From assembly GCA_937944405.1 (NCBI GenBank), contig CALDYR010000062.1, positions 16,003-80,002 on the forward strand: 64,000 bases of DNA, in the 5' to 3' direction. Under the pieces are notes generated by a model. That model had not been told where the DNA came from. It worked only from the letters and a program-made list of their open reading frames with translations, and searched no databases. Of this stretch, positions 24,696 to 60,858 are shown piece by piece. The stretch's first letter is position 1. Each line of letters starts with the position of its first letter. The position numbers were made by a program, and so were the translations under genes. Origin of the DNA: an uncultured Pirellulaceae bacterium. GTDB taxonomy: Bacteria > Planctomycetota > Planctomycetia > Pirellulales > Pirellulaceae.

Positions 24696-25280
24696 GTGTT
24701 GGAGATCATCACTTTTCCTCACCCCACCTTACGACATAAATCCAAACCGATCACCAAAGTCGACGCGGAACTTAAGCAAATCGTTGCCGACATGTTCGAG
24801 GCGATGTACCAGGCCAAAGGCATCGGCTTGGCGGCCAATCAAGTCAATTTGCCGTTGCAGTTATTTGTTATCAACACCACCGGCAAAAAAGACAGCGGTG
24901 AAGAACAGGTGTTTATCAACCCCGTTCTGTCGGCAGCCAAAGGCGCAGCCGATGCAGACGAAGGCTGCTTGAGCCTGCCGGGCGTTGGCGGCATCGTCAG
25001 CCGACCAGAAACCATTCACGTTTCTGCCTATGACCTTCAAGGCAACCCAATCGAAATGACGGCCAAAGGATTGCTTGGACGCGCCATCCAGCACGAATTC
25101 GATCACTTGCAGGGCGTCATGTTTATCGACCGATTATCTGATTCTGAAAAACGCTTGATCCAAGAGGAAGTCGAAACTTTCGAACTTGACTTTGAGGCTC
25201 GACGAAAGGCTGGCAGCATTCCCTCCAACGAACAGATCGCCGCCCACCTAAAAGATTTCGAGACCCGGTACTGCAGCTGA
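24696..25280 (+). CDS. def: Peptide deformylase
   Basis: GIGLAANQVNLPLQLFVIN, EGCLSLPGV, LLGRAIQHEFDHLQGVMFIDRL. Confidence 0.96.
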   Translation: MLEIITFPHPTLRHKSKPITKVDAELKQIVADMFEAMYQAKGIGLAANQVNLPLQLFVINTTGKKDSGEEQVFINPVLSAAKGAADADEGCLSLPGVGGIVSRPETIHVSAYDLQGNPIEMTAKGLLGRAIQHEFDHLQGVMFIDRLSDSEKRLIQEEVETFELDFEARRKAGSIPSNEQIAAHLKDFETRYCS

Positions 25281-49295: not shown

Positions 49296-50123
49296 TTAAG
49301 CCAACATGTTCGTCAAACGTCCAGGCGAACCCATCGCGTTGTAGCCGCCATCGATATGAAGTACTTCGCCGGTGATGCCTTCGGAAAGATCTGACAGTAA
49401 AAACGCCCCGGACTTCCCAACGTCTTCGTGCGAAATGTTCTTGCCCGTCATTGCTATGTGTTCGTACATTTTCAACATATCGCCAACGCCGGCGGCGCTT
49501 CCGGCCAACGTCTTCAATGGGCCGGCACTCAAGGCGTTGACCCGTACACCTGCGGGGCCTAAATCGTAGGCCAGATAACGCATCGTTGCATCCAGCGCCG
49601 CTTTACAGATTCCCATCACGTTGTAACCGGGAACACATTTTTCACCACCGAAGTACGTCATACACGCAATCGCCGAACGATCCGAAAGAATCGGCCGGGC
49701 AGCATTGGCGACAGCGATCAGACTGTAACAGCTGATTTCCATCGCCATGTTGAAACCGCTGCGGCTGGTTTCAACGGTGTCGCGTTGCAAATCATTTCGA
49801 TCGGCAAACGCGATCGAATGTAGCAAAAAATCGATTTTCCCAAATTCTTGTTTGGCCGTGTCCATCACGCTAGCGATTTGTTCGTCGTCCTGAACATTAA
49901 GGGGAACCAAGAATTTGGCTTGATCTTGGTAATCTGATTTTTCTAAACACTTTTGAACGCGCCGATGGTTTTTCTTTTTGTCGTCGTCCTCCCGGTCGGG
50001 GAGATGGGTAAAACCACATTGGCCGCCTTCGGACATGATTTTGTCCGCAATCGCCCATGCAATCGAACGATCGTTGGCGACCCCGAGAATTAAACCTTTT
50101 TTACCTTCGAACATACCCGCCAT
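49296..50123 (-). CDS. fabI: Enoyl-[acyl-carrier-protein] reductase
   Basis: GKKGLILGVANDRSIAWAIA, FGKIDFLLHSIAFADR, VPGYNVMGICKAALDATMRYLAYDLGPAGVRVNALSAGP. Confidence 0.94.
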   Translation of the reverse strand: MAGMFEGKKGLILGVANDRSIAWAIADKIMSEGGQCGFTHLPDREDDDKKKNHRRVQKCLEKSDYQDQAKFLVPLNVQDDEQIASVMDTAKQEFGKIDFLLHSIAFADRNDLQRDTVETSRSGFNMAMEISCYSLIAVANAARPILSDRSAIACMTYFGGEKCVPGYNVMGICKAALDATMRYLAYDLGPAGVRVNALSAGPLKTLAGSAAGVGDMLKMYEHIAMTGKNISHEDVGKSGAFLLSDLSEGITGEVLHIDGGYNAMGSPGRLTNMLA

Positions 50124-50373
50124 AACATTCCTCTCAGCTTTCCTCAAAATGCGTTTTCAAATACCAAGAAGTTACATCGTTAGCGCTTCTCAGTGTGGCC
50201 CGCGCTGGAATCGGGCGGGCCAGATTTTCAGCAATTTACCACAACGCGCCGGCTTCTTCATTGCCCCTAAGTGTCAAATTGACGACGGTCTGGTAAATTC
50301 CATCGATAAATCTTGCGATCCAACCATCGCTGCTCGTTTTCGACTACCGACTTGCACTGATCCAATTCCCACC

Positions 50374-52305
50374 ATGCGCCAACAAGCCCAGACCGATCGA
50401 ATCGTCCAAGGTAACCATGGGCCTATGCTGTTGCCTGAACTGATTTACCATTCGCTTCATTGTCACGATGAAAGTAACTTCCTGCGCGCTGCGGTCAAAC
50501 ACATCAACGACGCCACCGGCGCGACCACCACCGCCGTTGTCCAAGGCATCAAAGGCCAATGGCGAACGTTGGCAGAAATACTCACCGACCAACCTTCGCA
50601 AGCATTCCTCACTGACGTTTTAGATGCCGAACGCTGCCTTTGCAAAGGCGACTGGATCGCGACGCCAGTTTCTCCATCGACTCCCGATCTGCAACACCGG
50701 GGCATGTTGCTGTTGCAGAAATTTGCCAATCCACTAACAGGCCAAGAATTCGACTCGATCGCCGCGGCACTCCATTTAGCCCTGATTAACCATCAAAACC
50801 ATATCGCCAGCGACCGCCGCGGCGAACGTTTACAAACGATGCTGGAGATGACGGTCAGTTGGAACCAGTCGCGCGAAACCGATCAATTACTGATCAAGAT
50901 CGCCGAAGCGTCAACGCGATTGCTGGGTGCCGAACGTGCCACGATCTTTCTTCCCGACAGCAGCCGCGAGACTCTGATCGGCAAACCCGCCTTAGGAGTC
51001 GAAGACGGTATCTTGCGAATTCCAGCAACCGCTGGCGTCGTCGGTCAAGTCATCAAAACCGGCCAACCGGTGCGCGTGGACGAAGACATCTCTCACGAAC
51101 AACAACAAATCAATCGTACCGTCGATCAGAAATTGGGGTTCGAGACGAAAACGATCCTCTGCGTCGCGATGTTAGATGCCAAAGGAAAAGTAATCGGCGC
51201 TTTCGAAGTCATCAATCGCCACAGCGGCAACTTCACGGCCGAAGACGAAGTCGCCCTCACAGAACTGGCCGCTCACGCCGCGGTCGCCATCGAGAACACC
51301 CAACACGTCGAAAAATTAGTCTCCACCAAATCACACATCGCTGACCAAGCCGCAGGTGGTGTGGAGCTGATAGGCCAATGTGAGTCGATCGAAAAACTGA
51401 AACAAACATTAGCCCGAATCGCGGACACCGATTTGGCAATCCTGATCACCGGCGAAAACGGAACCGGTAAAGAAGTCGTCGCGCAGTTAGTCCACTACCT
51501 CAGCCAACGGCGTGACGAGGTCTTAGTCGCGGTCAACTGTGCCGCGATCAGCGAAACGCTGCTGGAAAGCGAACTCTTTGGTCACGAAAAAGGAGCTTTC
51601 ACCGACGCCCATCAAGCGCGTGAAGGAAAATTTGAACTGGCTAATGGAGGCACGCTGTTTTTAGATGAAATCGGCGATATGTCTTTGGGTGGACAGGCCA
51701 AACTGCTCCGCGTGCTTGAGGAGAAAGTTGTTGTCCGGGTTGGCGGCAGCGTGACGATTCCGACTTCGGCGCGCGTCGTCGCGGCCACTAATCAGAAGCT
51801 TGGCGAATTGGTACGCGATAAAAAATTTCGCGAAGATCTATTCTTCCGCTTGAACGTGGTAACGATCGAACTGCCAGCGCTGCGCGAGCGCGGAGACGAC
51901 GTTTTGCTGTTGGCGAACCACTTTTTAGACGGTTTCTGCAAAAAGGCACGACGAACGACCCCCACCATTTCTGCGGCCGCAAAAAAACGGTTGTTGGGCC
52001 ATCGTTGGCCGGGCAATGTCCGTGAACTGAGAAATATGATGGAACGGTTGGCCTACCTAACGGACGGCGATAAAGTGGTGCCCGAAGACCTTGCATTCAT
52101 CAATGCACCGGCAGTCGAAGAATCAGCGATCCCGCTTTCGCTGTCTCTAAATGAGGCCACCCATAGTTTTCAAATGGACTATATTCAACGGCAGATCGAC
52201 CACGCCAGAGGCAATATCACCGACGCGGCTGCCAACATGGGCCTGCACCGCTCCAACCTCTATCGGAAAATGAAACAGTTGGGTATGAACGCGGATCAAA
52301 GATAA
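50374..52305 (+). CDS. GAF-containing sigma-54-dependent Fis family transcriptional regulator
   Basis: GAF-like region, ITGENGTGKEVVAQLVHYLS, ESELFGHEKGAFTDA, GGTLFLDEIGDMSLGGQAKLLRVLEE, C-terminal Fis-type HTH ITDAAANMGLHRSNLYRKMKQLG. Confidence 0.94.
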   Translation: MRQQAQTDRIVQGNHGPMLLPELIYHSLHCHDESNFLRAAVKHINDATGATTTAVVQGIKGQWRTLAEILTDQPSQAFLTDVLDAERCLCKGDWIATPVSPSTPDLQHRGMLLLQKFANPLTGQEFDSIAAALHLALINHQNHIASDRRGERLQTMLEMTVSWNQSRETDQLLIKIAEASTRLLGAERATIFLPDSSRETLIGKPALGVEDGILRIPATAGVVGQVIKTGQPVRVDEDISHEQQQINRTVDQKLGFETKTILCVAMLDAKGKVIGAFEVINRHSGNFTAEDEVALTELAAHAAVAIENTQHVEKLVSTKSHIADQAAGGVELIGQCESIEKLKQTLARIADTDLAILITGENGTGKEVVAQLVHYLSQRRDEVLVAVNCAAISETLLESELFGHEKGAFTDAHQAREGKFELANGGTLFLDEIGDMSLGGQAKLLRVLEEKVVVRVGGSVTIPTSARVVAATNQKLGELVRDKKFREDLFFRLNVVTIELPALRERGDDVLLLANHFLDGFCKKARRTTPTISAAAKKRLLGHRWPGNVRELRNMMERLAYLTDGDKVVPEDLAFINAPAVEESAIPLSLSLNEATHSFQMDYIQRQIDHARGNITDAAANMGLHRSNLYRKMKQLGMNADQR

Positions 52306-52757
52306 CGGCGCTGAACTGTTGACACCGATTTTAAAACGAAAACAATCAAAGACTTGTCTCGCTGCTCCCAACGCAAACAAACAACCGTAGTCAAGTCGTT
52401 GGCCCAGTTACTTCGGCGGCAGTCCCAACAGCGGAAAGAATAAAGCTTCCTCATCACACCCTCGTAATCTGCAACGCACAATCGCGGTGGTCGCCGGTCG
52501 CGCAAATCCCAATTCAGATCGAGCCAACCACGAAACGAGCTTTAATCTCGACAGTGGTCTGAATCCTAGCGAATCCAGCTACATTAAAACCACGCTACTT
52601 TTAAAATCACACGACGTTGGGATGCTGATTGTTGGATGACTCACAGAGGGTCCTGTCAGCACCTATCTCTGGCGAACCTTTCGATTAAAAAAGATATTAT
52701 TTCCGAAATCGCTCCGTTTCAAGTTTGACGGTGGTCGGCATTGGATTGTTTAAATGG

Positions 52758-54215
52758 ATGGAGTTTTCTGTGAGCATTTTCAAGTCCGTAACGCGGCAGT
52801 TAGGCGACCGTCGTCGTTGGGTCGCGTTGACAGCAGTGATTGCCGTGGTGGGCTCGGTGGTCGCTACCATCGCGGTGCAGCGCCTTTCCCAACAAGCACA
52901 GGCTTCGCCGGCGGGATACCTCGTTCAATCGACCGGCTCCAGCGGCGATGACGACTTGGCACCCTATTTTGGGCTGACTTCTTCCAGTGCGGCAGTTGTC
53001 GAACAATCCCTGAAGACGATTTCGGAGAATTGGCACCCCGGTTCGGCTGTGATGATGATTGAGGTCGCGCGGTTTGCGCGCAGCGGTGTAGTAGCCGCAC
53101 AGATCATCTCCCTAACTGAGGCTAAAACTGGCCAACGTTTCCAAGACGATTTTGATAAATGGCACCAATGGATTTGGAAACAACCTTATGACCCCCACCC
53201 AAACTACGCACAATTCAAAAGCGCGCTCTACGCCAAAATAGATCCGCGATTCGCTGAATACTACCGTGTGACCAAAAATTCCAAGATCCGTTTGGATGAA
53301 ATTCGTTGGGGAGGCGTGATTCGTGACGGAATCCCGCCGCTGAAAGATCCCAAAATGATCACCGCCGCCAACGCCGATTACCTTGCCGATTCCGACGTCG
53401 TGTTCGGAGTTGACCTCAACGGCGACGCCCGGTGCTACCCAAAACGCATTTTAGCATGGCACGAAATGTTCAAGGACACGATCGGCGGCGAATCGGTATG
53501 CGGCGTTTACTGAACGTTATGCGGAGCGCTGATCGTGTATCAGACAAAACTCAACGGCAAACACTACGAATTAGGCACCAGCGGATTCTTATACCGTTCC
53601 AATAAACTAATGTACGACCACGAAACGAAGTCTTATTGGTCGACACTTCAAGGCGAACCGGTCGTCGGCGAATTGGTCGATAAGAACATTAAGTTAAACC
53701 GCCGCTACTGCGTTACGACGACGTGGGGCGATTGGAAGCGACAGCACCCAGACACGACGGTTCTATCTTTGGACACAGGTCACTCGCGCGACTACGGGGA
53801 AGGCGTTGCCTACAACGCCTACTTCAGCACCGACAAATTGATGTTCAAAGTCCCCGGCAAAGACAGCCGATTACTCAACAAAGCAGAGGTTGTCGTGCTG
53901 CGAAACGAAACGCAACAGCTAGCGATCTCTTCTGAATTTCTACTGCAACACCCTGTTTACCATGACGTACTGGGGAAGGATAATTTGGTGGTACTGTCCA
54001 ATCCCGCTGGTGCCAATCGTGTCTATCGATCGGGTGAGACAAAATTCCAAACCTACAACGGTGCTGACACCGTGAATGACTCCGATGGGCAGCAGTGGCA
54101 GGTCACCGAAGAAAGTCTTACTTTGGGAACAACAACCTACAAACGCATGCCGTCCCATCGTGCTTTTTGGTTCGGATGGCACGCCCAGTACCCAAAAACT
54201 CGGCTGGTGAAATAA
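52758..54215 (+). CDS. DUF3179 domain-containing protein with in-frame TGA at 53511-53513 (candidate selenocysteine)
   Basis: DVVFGVDLNGDARCYPKRILAWHEMFKDTIGGESVCGVY[TGA]TLCGALIVYQTKLNGKHYELGTSGFLYRSNKLMYDHETKSYWSTLQGEPVVG is continuous in one frame across the TGA. Confidence 0.75.
53514..53556 (+). promoter_or_regulatory. Putative bacterial SECIS-like hairpin downstream of the in-frame TGA
   Basis: CTGAT-CGTGT-ATCAG (5-bp stem 53529-53533/53539-53543, loop 53534-53538 with G at loop position 2), flanked by distal CGTT (53515-53518)/AACG (53553-53556) pairing; 20 nt between TGA and apical loop. Confidence 0.4.
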
Positions 54216-54733: not shown

Positions 54734-54900
54734 CCAATGGTTCGCGCGGCCGGTGTCCTGAGAAGCCGACTGAGTCCTCCGGTGGCACGTTGGGCAAATT
54801 ACCCGCCACCGGACACGGGGTTCTACTGGTTCTTTTCCTGCACTATATTATCGGTTTTTGTAACCCTTTCAGTTTTCACTTTTTAATCTGCACTTCGGCA

Positions 54901-55377
54901 ATGAAGTACTCGTTCACCCTGTTAATCGCTCTGTGCGGGATCTGGTTTTTGTGGTCAGGTCACTTTGAACCTTTCATGCTGTTTCTGGCGGCGTTTTCGA
55001 TTGGACTGTCGTTGCTGATTTCGCGACGCATGCGGATCGTGGACGAAGAAGGGGCCCCGATGCAAATGGGCGTCCGGCCTTTTACTCAGTTTGCGCCTTG
55101 GCTGGCAAAGGAAATCGTCGTTTCCAACATCGAAGTTGCCAAAATCATTCTTTCCAAAAAGATGCCGATTAAACGCAATTTGGTTACCGTACCTGCCGGC
55201 CCCAAAAGTACGCTCGGTAAGGTTATTCTTGCCAATTCCATTACGCTGACCCCGGGGACGGTGTCGGTCAAGATGGAGGGCGACGAAATTCTGGTGCACG
55301 CCCTCTCTTTCGAAGGCGCAGCGGATGATCTTTCGGGTGATATGGACAGACGCATTCAAGCTCTTGAAAAACAATAG
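54901..55377 (+). CDS. Na+/H+ antiporter subunit E (MnhE/MrpE)
   Basis: KEIVVSNIEVAKIIL, LANSITLTPGTVSVKMEGDEILVHAL. Confidence 0.9.
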   Translation: MKYSFTLLIALCGIWFLWSGHFEPFMLFLAAFSIGLSLLISRRMRIVDEEGAPMQMGVRPFTQFAPWLAKEIVVSNIEVAKIILSKKMPIKRNLVTVPAGPKSTLGKVILANSITLTPGTVSVKMEGDEILVHALSFEGAADDLSGDMDRRIQALEKQ

Positions 55378-55520
55378 AAGCTCATTCCTTCAGAGTAACG
55401 GCACCCTAGTTTGCCTGACGTTTTATCACCGCCGTTTTCCCATCGTTATTTATCAAACCACCGTTTTACCAAACCACCATTTTACCAAACGCAATCGGAC
55501 GCAGTAGGAAACCCGAAACA

Positions 55521-55820
55521 ATGTATATCGCCGCCGCCGCTGCCATTTTGGTTACGATGACCTTGGCGTTAATTCGCGCGATGCTCGGACCGACGGTATT
55601 CGACCGCGTTTTGGCGCTGAATATGTTTGGCACCAAAACGGTCCTTTTGATTTGCGTAATCTGCGTCCTCAATGCTCCACAACGACACGATTTTCTGGAC
55701 CTCGCGTTACTGTATAGCTTGATGAACTTCATCGGCATGGTGGCGTTATTGCGTTTCACCCAATACGGAACCTTCGCTGAATTTAAGCCTCAGCGTCACA
55801 AAACAGGAGCCGGCTCATGA
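55521..55820 (+). CDS. Monovalent cation/H+ antiporter subunit F (MrpF-like)
   Basis: LALIRAMLGPTVFDRVLALNMFGTKTVLLICV and ALLYSLMNFIGMVALLRF. Confidence 0.88.
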   Translation: MYIAAAAAILVTMTLALIRAMLGPTVFDRVLALNMFGTKTVLLICVICVLNAPQRHDFLDLALLYSLMNFIGMVALLRFTQYGTFAEFKPQRHKTGAGS

Positions 55821-56131
55821 GCATTCTGTTTGACGTTTTAACTTGGATTTTCTTGATTGGCGGATCGTTCTTTTCGATCGTGGGCGGAATTGGCATCCTG
55901 CGAATGCCCGAGTTCTACTCGCGACTTCACGGAGGAGGAGTGACCGATACGCTGGGGGCGGCGTTAATCATTTTTGCGTTGATGTTTCAGACCGGGGTAA
56001 CGCTGGCGACCGTCAAACTTGCAATTATCTTGTTTTTTCTACTGATCGTGAGTCCGAGTTCTTGTCATGCACTGGCCAAATCGGCGATCAATCAAGGGCT
56101 CAAACCTATCGTCGATAACCCCGATCACTAA
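55817..56131 (+). CDS. Monovalent cation/H+ antiporter subunit G (MrpG-like)
   Basis: GSFFSIVGGIGILRMPEFYSRLHGGGVTDTLGAALI; ATGA overlap with the preceding gene. Confidence 0.9.
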   Translation: MSILFDVLTWIFLIGGSFFSIVGGIGILRMPEFYSRLHGGGVTDTLGAALIIFALMFQTGVTLATVKLAIILFFLLIVSPSSCHALAKSAINQGLKPIVDNPDH

Positions 56132-56179
56132 ATGAATTTCAGCCGAAAAATTGTTTCTCTAACCATTCGTTGTCGCTAA

Positions 56180-56758
56180 ATGTTTGTTTCCATTTTCATT
56201 CTGACACTACTGGTGGTTACCGCCATCACGATTGCGCGGATTGGCGACCTCTGGGCCGCGGTCATGTTCACAGGAATTTTTAGTTTTCTCGGCGCATGCT
56301 GGATGCTGATCTTAGACGCTCCGGACGTGGCTTTCACTGAAGCGGCGGTTGGTGCAGGTGTTTCGACCTTTTTAATGCTCGGCACACTGGCGTTGGCGGG
56401 TAAAACAGAAAAACCAACCACTAGTTCTTCGGTGGTCCCTTTGTTCGTGGTCGCTGTTACCGGTGCGGCATTGATCTACGGCACCTTGGACATGCCTCAT
56501 TTTGGCGACCCCAACAGCCCTGTGCAGACACGTATCGAGCCAAGCTTCATGGAAAAATCGCAGTCCGACATGCATGGGCTTCCTAATGTCGTCACCGCTT
56601 TATTGGCCAGTTATCGCGGGTACGATACTTTAGGAGAAACGGCCGTGATCTTTACTGCGGGAATCGCGGTGATCTTGATCCTACGAAGATCCAACGACGG
56701 CTTTAAATCTAACGACGTCTTCAACTCGCAATCTAATAGTCGTAAGGGAAGCCAATAA
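56180..56758 (+). CDS. MbhD/MbhE-like subunit (DUF4040-type, MrpA C-terminal-like)
   Basis: GDLWAAVMFTGIFSFLGACWMLILDAPDVAFTEAAVGAGVSTFLMLGTLAL. Confidence 0.82.
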   Translation: MFVSIFILTLLVVTAITIARIGDLWAAVMFTGIFSFLGACWMLILDAPDVAFTEAAVGAGVSTFLMLGTLALAGKTEKPTTSSSVVPLFVVAVTGAALIYGTLDMPHFGDPNSPVQTRIEPSFMEKSQSDMHGLPNVVTALLASYRGYDTLGETAVIFTAGIAVILILRRSNDGFKSNDVFNSQSNSRKGSQ

Positions 56759-57277
56759 ATGGATTCGTTCCCCATCATTCGGGTCGTTACCAAACTGATC
56801 ATTCCCTACATTTTATTGTTCGGGTTTTACGTTCAGTTCCACGGCGACTTCGGGCCCGGCGGCGGTTTCCAAGCCGGTGTGATTTTGGCATCGGCGTTAA
56901 TTCTGTATGGGCTGGTGTTCGGATTGCCTGCAGTCAAAACCGTCGCGCCGCCGAAGTTGATCGAAAAGTTAATCGCGTTGGGCGTTTTGATTTACGCTGG
57001 CACCGGTGTTGTCACGATGCTGGCAGGGAAAGCAACTCACACCGGTGAACATGAACTCACCAGTCGCACGGTGGCGAACTTTTTAGATTATGGGGCGCTG
57101 GACCATCATTTTCTTCCCGGATTCTTGCCCCACGGTCAACACTTAGGAATCTTCGTCGTGGAGTTTGGCGTCGGAATTACCGTAACTGCGGTAATGACGA
57201 TGATTTTTTACTGCTTCGCCGGACGGAACCCGCACGCTAACGGGCAATCAAATCAGCAATCGGAGGCCAAAGCATGA
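56759..57277 (+). CDS. MnhB/MrpB-like antiporter subunit
   Basis: YILLFGFYVQFHGDFGPGGGFQAGVILASALILYGLVFG, VVEFGVGITVTAVMTMIFYCFAGR. Confidence 0.9.
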   Translation: MDSFPIIRVVTKLIIPYILLFGFYVQFHGDFGPGGGFQAGVILASALILYGLVFGLPAVKTVAPPKLIEKLIALGVLIYAGTGVVTMLAGKATHTGEHELTSRTVANFLDYGALDHHFLPGFLPHGQHLGIFVVEFGVGITVTAVMTMIFYCFAGRNPHANGQSNQQSEAKA

Positions 57278-57837
57278 CACTGGATGAAATTTTTGGTCTG
57301 TACAATTATTGGGTGGTGATCTGTCTGATGATGACGGGTTTTTACATCGTCATTGCTCGCAAGAATTTGATTAAGACCGTTATCGGTCTTAACGTTTTTC
57401 AAACTTCGGTCGTCCTTTTGTATATCACCATGGGCAAAGTTACCGGCGGAACAGCGCCGATCATCCCTCCCGAAATTGCCGCCCAACATGGTGAACACCA
57501 TGAACATTCAACCGCACATTCAACCGCACATTCAACCGCACATATGACCGCAGATGCACCACACCTTGATCACGCCACCGAACACGGCCATGAAGCGGTC
57601 ACCCCGCTCACTCAACACGCCGATCACGTTCACCAAACCGCCAGCGCAATGGCGGATCACAGCACCGAATTGATCTATTCAAATCCGCTGCCCAGCGTCC
57701 TGATGTTGACCGCGATCGTCGTCGGCATCGCCACAACCGCTTTGGCGTTGGCGTTGATTGTTCGGATCAGCGAAGATTATGGAACGATCGAAGAAGACGA
57801 AATCCTATTGATCGACCAACGAGACTCTTCCCACTAA
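57274..57837 (+). CDS. Cation:proton antiporter subunit C (MnhC/NuoK-like) with His-rich insertion
   Basis: MMTGFYIVIARKNLIKTVIGLNVFQTSVVLLYI; insertion HGEHHEHSTAHSTAHSTAHMTADAPHLDHATEHGHEA; LTAIVVGIATTALALALIVRI. Confidence 0.88.
   Translation: MTLDEIFGLYNYWVVICLMMTGFYIVIARKNLIKTVIGLNVFQTSVVLLYITMGKVTGGTAPIIPPEIAAQHGEHHEHSTAHSTAHSTAHMTADAPHLDHATEHGHEAVTPLTQHADHVHQTASAMADHSTELIYSNPLPSVLMLTAIVVGIATTALALALIVRISEDYGTIEEDEILLIDQRDSSH
57505..57552 (+). repeat. 12-bp in-frame tandem repeat (HSTA), 3 copies plus 1 degenerate
   Basis: cattcaaccgca x3 followed by catatgaccgca. Confidence 0.9.
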
Positions 57838-57865
57838 CAGCGTTAAACCAAGTGAAACGACCTCA

Positions 57866-59383
57866 GTGATCGAATTCTTACAATATCATTTACCCGTCCT
57901 GCTGATTGCGATTCCGTTGATCGCTGCGCCTTTGGCGGTACTGCTGAGCAACCGCTACATCGTCCAGAGTCTCGCACTTGCGGTGTGCTGGACGACCTTT
58001 GGGTTAGCGATCTGGATGGTGGCAATCGTAAACCAGTCGGGCCCTGTATCGTACGAACTTGGAGGGTGGGCGCCACCGTACGGAATCGAGTATCGCGTCG
58101 ACCAGCTCAACTCATTTGTGATGATGTTTGTGTCGGGTTTGGGTGCAATGGTGCTGACCTATTCCCCTTACAGCCTTAAAGCCGAAATCCCGTTATCGCA
58201 ACACTACCTATTTTACCCTATGTATTTGTTATGCATGACGGGACTGATGGGGATGTGTGTCACCGGCGACCTGTTCAATGTGTTTGTGTTTTTGGAAATC
58301 TCTTCGTTATCGACCTACGCTTTGATCAGCCTCGGGCGGACTCGGCGAGCCCCTTTGGCGGCGTTTCAGTATTTGATTATGGGTACCATCGGAGCGACGT
58401 TCCTGCTGATCGGGATCGGACTGCTGTATCAAATGACCGGCACGTTAAATATGGCCGACATCGCGGAACAATTAGAGGCTCAACGGTTGGTCAATGACGG
58501 ACAGTGGGCCGGTTCAAGGACGATGCTGGTTGCGTTTGCGTTTTTGACGGTCGGGCTTTGTATCAAAATGGCAGTTTTCCCACTGCACACGTGGTTACCC
58601 AACGCTTACGCCTACGCGCCGTCGGTCGTCACCGCCTTTGTAGCGGCCACCGCGACTAAGGTTTCCGTGTATGCCTTCATTCGCGTGGTTTTTGGGATTT
58701 TCACGCCGCAATTCGCTTTTGAATTGCTGCCGCTGGATACGGCGTTGTGGTCGTTTTCTTTGGTTGGAATTTTTTTGGCGTCGATCGCGGCAATCTTTCA
58801 ACAGGATGTAAAACGCAGGTTAGCTTATTCAAGCATCGCTCAAATTGGTTACATGCTATTGGGAATCAGCATGGCCGACGTCGATGGTCTCAGCGCCGGG
58901 ATCGTCCACATGTTTAATCATGCATTGATCAAAGGCGGTTTGTTTATGGTGGTCGGTTGTTTTGTGTTGCGATTGGGTTCGGTGCAAATGGATGATTGGA
59001 AAGGAGCCGGGCGGACGATGCCATGGACTTCTTTTGCGTGGGTCTTAGGTGGACTGGGTTTGATAGGCGTGCCGGTGACTTGCGGATTCATTAGCAAATG
59101 GTTGCTGTTGACTTCGGCAATTCATAACGAATTATACCCCGTCGCTATTTTAATGTTGATCAGTTCGTTGTTGGCGGTGGTTTATGTTTGGCAGATCGTG
59201 GAAGTGCTTTATTTTGAAGAACCATCAGAAAAAGCAAAACACGCTACCGAAGTGCCGCCGTTGATGTTATTGACCACTTACACCGTGGTTGGTGCTAACA
59301 TTGTATTTGGTGTTTGGACGACCTATTCAGCGGGTCTGGCAACCAAAGCGGCCAAGGCGTTGCTGGAAGGAGGTTCTCTATGA
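57866..59383 (+). CDS. MrpD/NuoN-family proton-translocating antiporter subunit
   Basis: NVFVFLEISSLSTYALISLGR, FPLHTWLPNAYAYAPSVVTAFVAATATKVSVYAFIR, RRLAYSSIAQIGYMLLG, MFNHALIKGGLFM. Confidence 0.92.
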   Translation: MIEFLQYHLPVLLIAIPLIAAPLAVLLSNRYIVQSLALAVCWTTFGLAIWMVAIVNQSGPVSYELGGWAPPYGIEYRVDQLNSFVMMFVSGLGAMVLTYSPYSLKAEIPLSQHYLFYPMYLLCMTGLMGMCVTGDLFNVFVFLEISSLSTYALISLGRTRRAPLAAFQYLIMGTIGATFLLIGIGLLYQMTGTLNMADIAEQLEAQRLVNDGQWAGSRTMLVAFAFLTVGLCIKMAVFPLHTWLPNAYAYAPSVVTAFVAATATKVSVYAFIRVVFGIFTPQFAFELLPLDTALWSFSLVGIFLASIAAIFQQDVKRRLAYSSIAQIGYMLLGISMADVDGLSAGIVHMFNHALIKGGLFMVVGCFVLRLGSVQMDDWKGAGRTMPWTSFAWVLGGLGLIGVPVTCGFISKWLLLTSAIHNELYPVAILMLISSLLAVVYVWQIVEVLYFEEPSEKAKHATEVPPLMLLTTYTVVGANIVFGVWTTYSAGLATKAAKALLEGGSL

Positions 59384-60858
59384 ACCTTTTTAGTCCCGAA
59401 ACAATAATCCAAATCTCCTTAGCCCTTCCCGCGTTGGGAATCGTATTGGTGCTGTTGACCGGTCGATTTCCCAACCTGCGTGAGACGTGCAGTTTGGCCG
59501 TGGCGGCCCTGTTGTTTTTGGTGAATTGTGATTTGGCTTCTTACGTTTTCTCAGGCGGTCGACCTTCCTGGAGAGCCGGCCAACTGATGCCCGGTTTTGA
59601 CGTGGCGTTCACCGTAGAACCTTTGGGAATGTTGTTCGCCTTGGTCGCGTCGGGACTGTGGGTACTGACGACGGTGTACGCGATTGGCTACATGCGTGGT
59701 CATCATGAAAAAAACCAGACGCGATTCTTTGCTTGCTTTGCCGCTGCGATTTTTGCGGCGATGGCGGCCGCGTATTCTGCGAATTTGTTCACGCTGTTTG
59801 TGATGTACGAAATCATGACGATTTCGACCTATCCGCTGGTGACGCATCATGGCGACCAAAACGCCAAAGGCGGCGGTCGCGTTTATTTGGGCATCTTACT
59901 TTCAACATCGGTCGCGTTTTTCATGTTCGCTATCGCCTGGACATGGAAAATTGCGGACACGTTAACCTTCACCCAAGGTGGAATTCTGTCCAAAGCGTTC
60001 TCTGAGGGACGCGTTACTGAATTTGAGCTTGCGATTTTGCTGGGGCTGTTCGCGTTTGGCATTGGTAAAGCCGCGTTGATGCCGTTTCACCGATGGTTAC
60101 CTGCCGCGATGGTGGCCCCGACACCAGTTAGCGCTTTACTACATGCCGTTGCGGTGGTGAAGGTTGGGGTGTTTTCGGTGTTGAAGGTGGCGCTCTATAT
60201 TTTTGGGTTGGATCTCATTCGAGATACCGGCGCTGGGGAGTGGTTGTGCTACGTCGCGGCGGCAACGATTTTACTGGCCTCGCTGGTGGCGATGACCAAA
60301 GACAATCTGAAAGCCCGATTGGCGTATTCCACGGTCAGTCAATTGGCTTATATCACACTGGGGGCGGCAATCGCGATGCCACAAAGCGCCCTCGGCAGTG
60401 GGATGCACATCGCGATGCATGCGGTCGGAAAGATTACGTTGTTTTTCTGTGCGGGAGCTGTTTACGTGGGCGCGCATAAAACCAACATCAGTCAAATGCG
60501 CGGACTTGGACGCGCGATGCCGTTGACTTTCGCCGCGTTTTTGATCGCCGCGATCAGCATTATCGGTTTGCCACCGGGGGGAGGGTCGTGGAGCAAGTGG
60601 CTGTTGGCGTTAGGGGCCGCCCAATCGGGCCAGACCTTCTTGATCGCAACCCTGATGATCAGTTCGCTGCTGAACATCGCGTATTTGATTCCTATTCCAA
60701 TCCAAGCATTTATGGTCCCCCCGGGCGAAAAACCAATGCCTTTCAAAGAAGGACCGATGCTGTGCGTCGTGCCGCTGTGTATTACCGCGATCGGTAGTGT
60801 TGCGTTATTTCTCTTCGCCGATTCGATCTACGCGTGTTTGCTACCGATCGTGCAGTGA
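59380..60858 (+). CDS. Second MrpD/NuoL-family proton-translocating subunit
   Basis: NLFTLFVMYEIMTISTYPLVTHHGD, LMPFHRWLPAAMVAPTPVSALLHAVAVVKVGVFSVLKV, RLAYSTVSQLAYITLG; ATGA overlap with preceding gene. Confidence 0.92.
   Translation: MNLFSPETIIQISLALPALGIVLVLLTGRFPNLRETCSLAVAALLFLVNCDLASYVFSGGRPSWRAGQLMPGFDVAFTVEPLGMLFALVASGLWVLTTVYAIGYMRGHHEKNQTRFFACFAAAIFAAMAAAYSANLFTLFVMYEIMTISTYPLVTHHGDQNAKGGGRVYLGILLSTSVAFFMFAIAWTWKIADTLTFTQGGILSKAFSEGRVTEFELAILLGLFAFGIGKAALMPFHRWLPAAMVAPTPVSALLHAVAVVKVGVFSVLKVALYIFGLDLIRDTGAGEWLCYVAAATILLASLVAMTKDNLKARLAYSTVSQLAYITLGAAIAMPQSALGSGMHIAMHAVGKITLFFCAGAVYVGAHKTNISQMRGLGRAMPLTFAAFLIAAISIIGLPPGGGSWSKWLLALGAAQSGQTFLIATLMISSLLNIAYLIPIPIQAFMVPPGEKPMPFKEGPMLCVVPLCITAIGSVALFLFADSIYACLLPIVQ

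Follow-up and report, generated by a model that had tools for sequence, protein, structure and literature searches.

The window, a 64,000-nucleotide stretch of DNA from an uncultured Pirellulaceae bacterium, very probably encodes a single membrane-anchored DUF3179 protein in which the UGA at positions 53511 to 53513 is read as selenocysteine (Sec) under the direction of a downstream hairpin, as judged from comparative sequence analysis. Sec insertion at this codon had been proposed in a first-pass annotation of the window, and the proposal is supported by the Sec machinery of the genome, the conservation of the codon, and the conservation and covariation of the hairpin.

Gene and reading frame

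The forward-strand frame 52725-54215 has a single interruption, the TGA that would encode Sec (Table 1). The first-pass annotation had described two open reading frames in one frame, 52725-53513 and 53535-54215, split by nothing but this codon, which was borne out; its estimate of about 230 additional codons on read-through compares with 233 codons counted, ending with the TAA at 54213-54215. Its assignment to DUF3179 likewise stands, the joined protein matching PF11376 end to end across the TGA (profile positions 1-292 of 292, 255.5 bits versus a gathering cut-off of 27), and no NCBIfam profile matched the joined protein. Within a Y-U-T-L-C-G motif, the TGA stands where the first Cys would be. 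Among the possible starts, GTG 52770 is more likely than ATG 52758 because a putative ribosome-binding GGAG precedes it, and the predicted gene then comprises 481 codons plus the stop.

Table 1. Features of the DUF3179 gene, in positions of the window
Feature	Position	Strand	Basis or remark
Alternative starts	ATG 52758; TTG 52725	+	
Shine-Dalgarno-like GGAG (putative)	52760-52763	+	6 nt before GTG 52770; read from the sequence
DUF3179 selenoprotein gene (predicted)	52770-54215	+	Read-through translation; PF11376, E 9e-76; GGAG 6 nt before GTG
N-terminal membrane helix (model residues 14-42)	52809-52895	+	AlphaFold2 model and hydrophobic stretch; predicted topology
Helical domain before DUF3179 (model residues 60-165)	52947-53264	+	AlphaFold2 model
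DUF3179 domain	53322-54200	+	Pfam PF11376, residues 200-492 of the translation from 52725
In-frame TGA, putative Sec codon (Sec248 of the 481-residue form)	53511-53513	+	Same codon in nine species of the genus
Thr-Leu-Cys-Gly codons	53514-53525	+	Cys251 at 53520-53522, possible partner in UxxC
Bacterial SECIS hairpin CUGAU-CGUGU-AUCAG	53529-53543	+	Covarying stem in Sec forms, none in Cys forms; synonymous constraint

Elsewhere in the window TGA acts as a stop, e.g., after the peptide-deformylase-like open reading frame that ends at 25280, and ordinary gene ends are among the window TGAs flanked by long open frames on both sides. The TGA at 2542 is the only other one of this type with a hairpin, which looks like a chance occurrence. 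The gene is directly adjoined upstream by a regulator with GAF, sigma-54-activator, and Fis domains (49978-52302) and downstream by a Mrp-type Na+/H+ antiporter gene cluster (54838-60858; MNHE and Proton_antipo_M matches). Upstream genes for a fabI-like protein and a sigma-54/GAF regulator recur at locus L044; at the loci of other phyla no recurring neighbor genes were seen by eye, and the neighborhood gave no lead to the function.

Sec and Cys codons among relatives

Exactly this codon is TGA in nine species of the genus, that of the window among them; the other eight are 59-71% identical, and a tenth, more distant copy (G108, 48%) has TGT. Orthologues from other Pirellulaceae genera, Acidobacteria, Gemmatimonadetes, and Alphaproteobacteria encode Cys (TGC or TGT), and TGA is found again in three Verrucomicrobiota metagenome-assembled genomes (MAGs; loci L047, L049, and L052). 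The first-pass annotation had placed the TGA at a Cys site and had named alternation of the two codon types in this alignment column as a check, and both are what the relatives reveal. Two pairs of loci have identical gene sequences (L065 and L044, L066 and L045). A tree of 67 sequences requires at least four changes between Sec and Cys, at least two of which are forced by its starred branches. Given a support of 93 for the fork with the nine TGA species and a root that is not fixed, the direction of these changes is one that we infer, and the placement in the tree suggests a probable local change from Cys to Sec in the genus of the window.

Purifying selection carries on past the TGA. Among the nine species, the mean dN/dS was about 0.11 after the codon (19 unsaturated pairs) and about 0.17 before it (5 unsaturated pairs), both being rough values with synonymous sites near saturation and few unsaturated pairs. 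The internal stops of DUF3179 matches in the family and phylum surveys were all TGA and never TAA or TAG, and about half of the matches in the phylum-wide Planctomycetota sample carry one TGA.

A recent nonsense mutation from TGC or TGT, which would have left a pseudogene, was the main alternative of the first-pass annotation. The TGA is one base away from both Cys codons, and off-motif TGAs do occur in DUF3179 genes of genome G016, but nine diverged species share the TGA and remain under purifying selection beyond it, internal stops are restricted to TGA, and the covarying hairpin is confined to the TGA forms, all of which makes this origin highly improbable; the genus-wide conservation of the codon excludes it for practical purposes. 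A sequencing or assembly error might be suspected in a genome fragmented into 161 contigs, but the identical codon in the independent assemblies of eight other species and in the Verrucomicrobiota MAGs leaves this explanation with a vanishingly small probability.

The two off-motif TGAs lie 7 codons before a Cys motif (L029, G016:C82) and at the conserved Arg of an A-R-x-Y-P motif (L103, G016:C125). They are probably nonsense changes or errors and can be used as negative controls. A second Sec in L103 was considered and rejected, the TGA being located at the conserved Arg and lacking a hairpin.

Hairpin and decoding machinery

The geometry of the hairpin given in the first-pass annotation was confirmed: the hairpin starts 15 nt downstream of the TGA, 20 nt separate the TGA from the loop, and the second loop base is G. 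Its conservation, on which the proposal had been made to depend, was found in the Sec forms, where the stem covaries, and the hairpin is missing from the Cys forms. The hairpin consists of a 5-bp stem that encloses a loop of five bases, mostly CGUGU. Among 48 Sec-type sequences, which represent several subfamilies, all five pairs are present in the same register in 41, compared with a stem in 0 of 29 Cys-type sequences. Four of the five pairs change on both sides of the stem among the Sec-type sequences, and the covariation score of 0.62 contrasts with 0.03-0.19 for slid registers; none of 500 shuffles scored as high, a count that is no probability because the shuffles ignore relatedness. Loop positions 24 and 27 covary as well; L009 and L090 have A-U there instead of C-G, pointing to a closing pair that encloses the loop G-U. 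The seven exceptions to the full stem are L037 with one mismatch, L030, L031, and the three Verrucomicrobiota sequences, which by eye are pairable in a shifted or longer register, and L101.

The proof of the hairpin rests on covariation, since the fold energy of one sequence does not single it out (minimum free energy in the window unremarkable, z = +1.5). At three of the five SECIS codons all nine species have the identical codon, which is true of 9 of 161 codons in total (p of about 0.001, hypergeometric). An additional distal CGTT/AACG pairing, which had been considered possible in the first pass, is present in the minimum-energy fold of the window but is not conserved in the lower-stem columns and folds. 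The bacterial SECIS element of Escherichia coli fdhF is an in-frame hairpin shortly after the UGA with G-U in its apical loop. The window hairpin shares the in-frame position shortly after the UGA and the loop G-U, whereas it differs in the short 5-bp stem and the pentaloop CGUGU and may differ in the distance of 20 nt between UGA and loop.

The genome of the window (3.95 Mb in 161 contigs) contains the complete set of Sec genes that the first-pass annotation had named as a check, i.e., selA (580 bits), selB (343.5 bits), selD (254 bits, within a 741-residue open frame), and tRNA-Sec (selC; 66 bits), each above its curated cut-off; for the tRNA, ARAGORN also calls SeC with the anticodon tca. 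In a family survey of 100 genomes, DUF3179 genes with an internal TGA were present in 28. Of these genomes, 26 have tRNA-Sec, an association with p = 6e-5 before any correction for relatedness, and selB is present in the remaining two. Within the genus of the window, tRNA-Sec was found in eight of nine TGA genomes; none was found in G125, which has a TGA gene and is 71% complete in 800 contigs, or in the Cys-type genome G108. The selD loci L042 (G027) and L043 (G095) contain one in-frame TGA inside selD itself, which is consistent with SelD being a selenoprotein in these two genomes; the selD gene of the window genome has no in-frame TGA.

Decoding of the UGA as a different amino acid (for example Trp, through near-cognate suppression) or under a changed genetic code would suffice to explain an open frame taken by itself, but it is most improbable, given that relatives have Cys at the aligned site and that TGA terminates other frames of the window, and it leaves the hairpin and tRNA-Sec unexplained. 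In the favored Sec reading, SelB and tRNA-Sec would decode the UGA as selenocysteine, and the hairpin inside the reading frame would direct the insertion.

Protein architecture and relation to known selenoproteins

The AlphaFold2 model of the protein is confident (pLDDT 88.5, pTM 0.81). Its DUF3179 domain is mainly beta, with Sec248 at the end of a strand and Cys251 in a turn, and positive residues preceding the membrane helix suggest a periplasm-facing orientation of the domain. Neither a sequence profile search of the PDB nor a fold search with the model returned a solved-structure relative, and the Rieske oxygenases among the top PDB hits were rejected at TM-scores of about 0.13-0.2. Because the best match reached only an E value of 0.05 and a TM-score below 0.2, the protein is not placed under thioredoxin or any other known redox fold.

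The UxxC pair expected in the first pass is present as U-T-L-C in the read-through translation, and Cys251 is invariant in alignment A3 (47 sequences). The partner Cys is not universal in the family, since Glu replaces it in the UxxE relatives L089 and L097-L099 (U-S-S-E) and Ala in the UxxA relative L074 (U-P-L-A); where scored, they have the full hairpin in the same register. Judging from the motif, the chances are perhaps even that Sec248 and Cys251 form a redox pair and that the protein is an oxidoreductase or is involved in oxidant handling. The pair would be a selenenylsulfide in a putatively periplasm-facing domain carried by the N-terminal membrane helix, and our best guess of the function is a periplasm-facing, membrane-anchored redox protein. 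Low selenium might alternatively cause a regulated stop at the UGA, yielding a short membrane-anchored form with its own role. Such a product would retain the membrane helix and the helical domain of the model, but nothing conserved indicates a separate short form and the Cys orthologues are full length, which makes regulated truncation unlikely compared with the full-length selenoprotein.

The first-pass annotation had regarded Sec in DUF3179 as undescribed, which fails, because two reviews (PMC9312934 and PMC13188914) already list the family as Sec-containing with the motif UxxC/T. The listing goes back to work on an Olavius algarvensis symbiont (Zhang and Gladyshev 2007), which the first of the two reviews cites. 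Planctomycetes are not named in the relevant passages of these reviews, which also mention neither a planctomycete breadth of the family nor UxxE/UxxA variants. Porphyra-associated planctomycetes have been reported to possess Sec machinery and genes for selenoproteins (PMC4807772); fdhA and fmdB are discussed in the main text of that study, and DUF3179 may be in its candidate table S9. The window gene resembles the listed DUF3179 selenoproteins in its Pfam domain, UxxC motif, and bacterial Sec decoding, and it differs in belonging to a long subfamily with the N-terminal membrane helix and the helical domain, in its Pirellulaceae genus, and in having Cys orthologues that span many other lineages.

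The kind is therefore already known, and the window gene is a well-supported new member of the DUF3179 selenoproteins. It adds a member from a Pirellulaceae genus in which Cys probably changed locally to Sec, a SECIS whose fixed position is common to subfamilies, and variants without Cys at the usual partner position. We consider it rather likely that DUF3179 is a main selenoprotein family of the Planctomycetota, with repeated Cys/Sec exchange, a position-locked SECIS, and UxxE/UxxA sublineages. If this is true, the Sec chemistry of these sublineages cannot be that of a simple UxxC pair, since their Sec lacks the partner Cys. Automatic annotation tends to halve such genes or to label them pseudogenes, and many DUF3179 genes are probably misannotated given the frequency of single TGAs in the Planctomycetota sample. 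The specific, conserved location of Sec indicates where the active site is likely to lie in a domain annotated without a function, and the natural pairs of Sec and Cys orthologues are ready-made for finding the activity of DUF3179.
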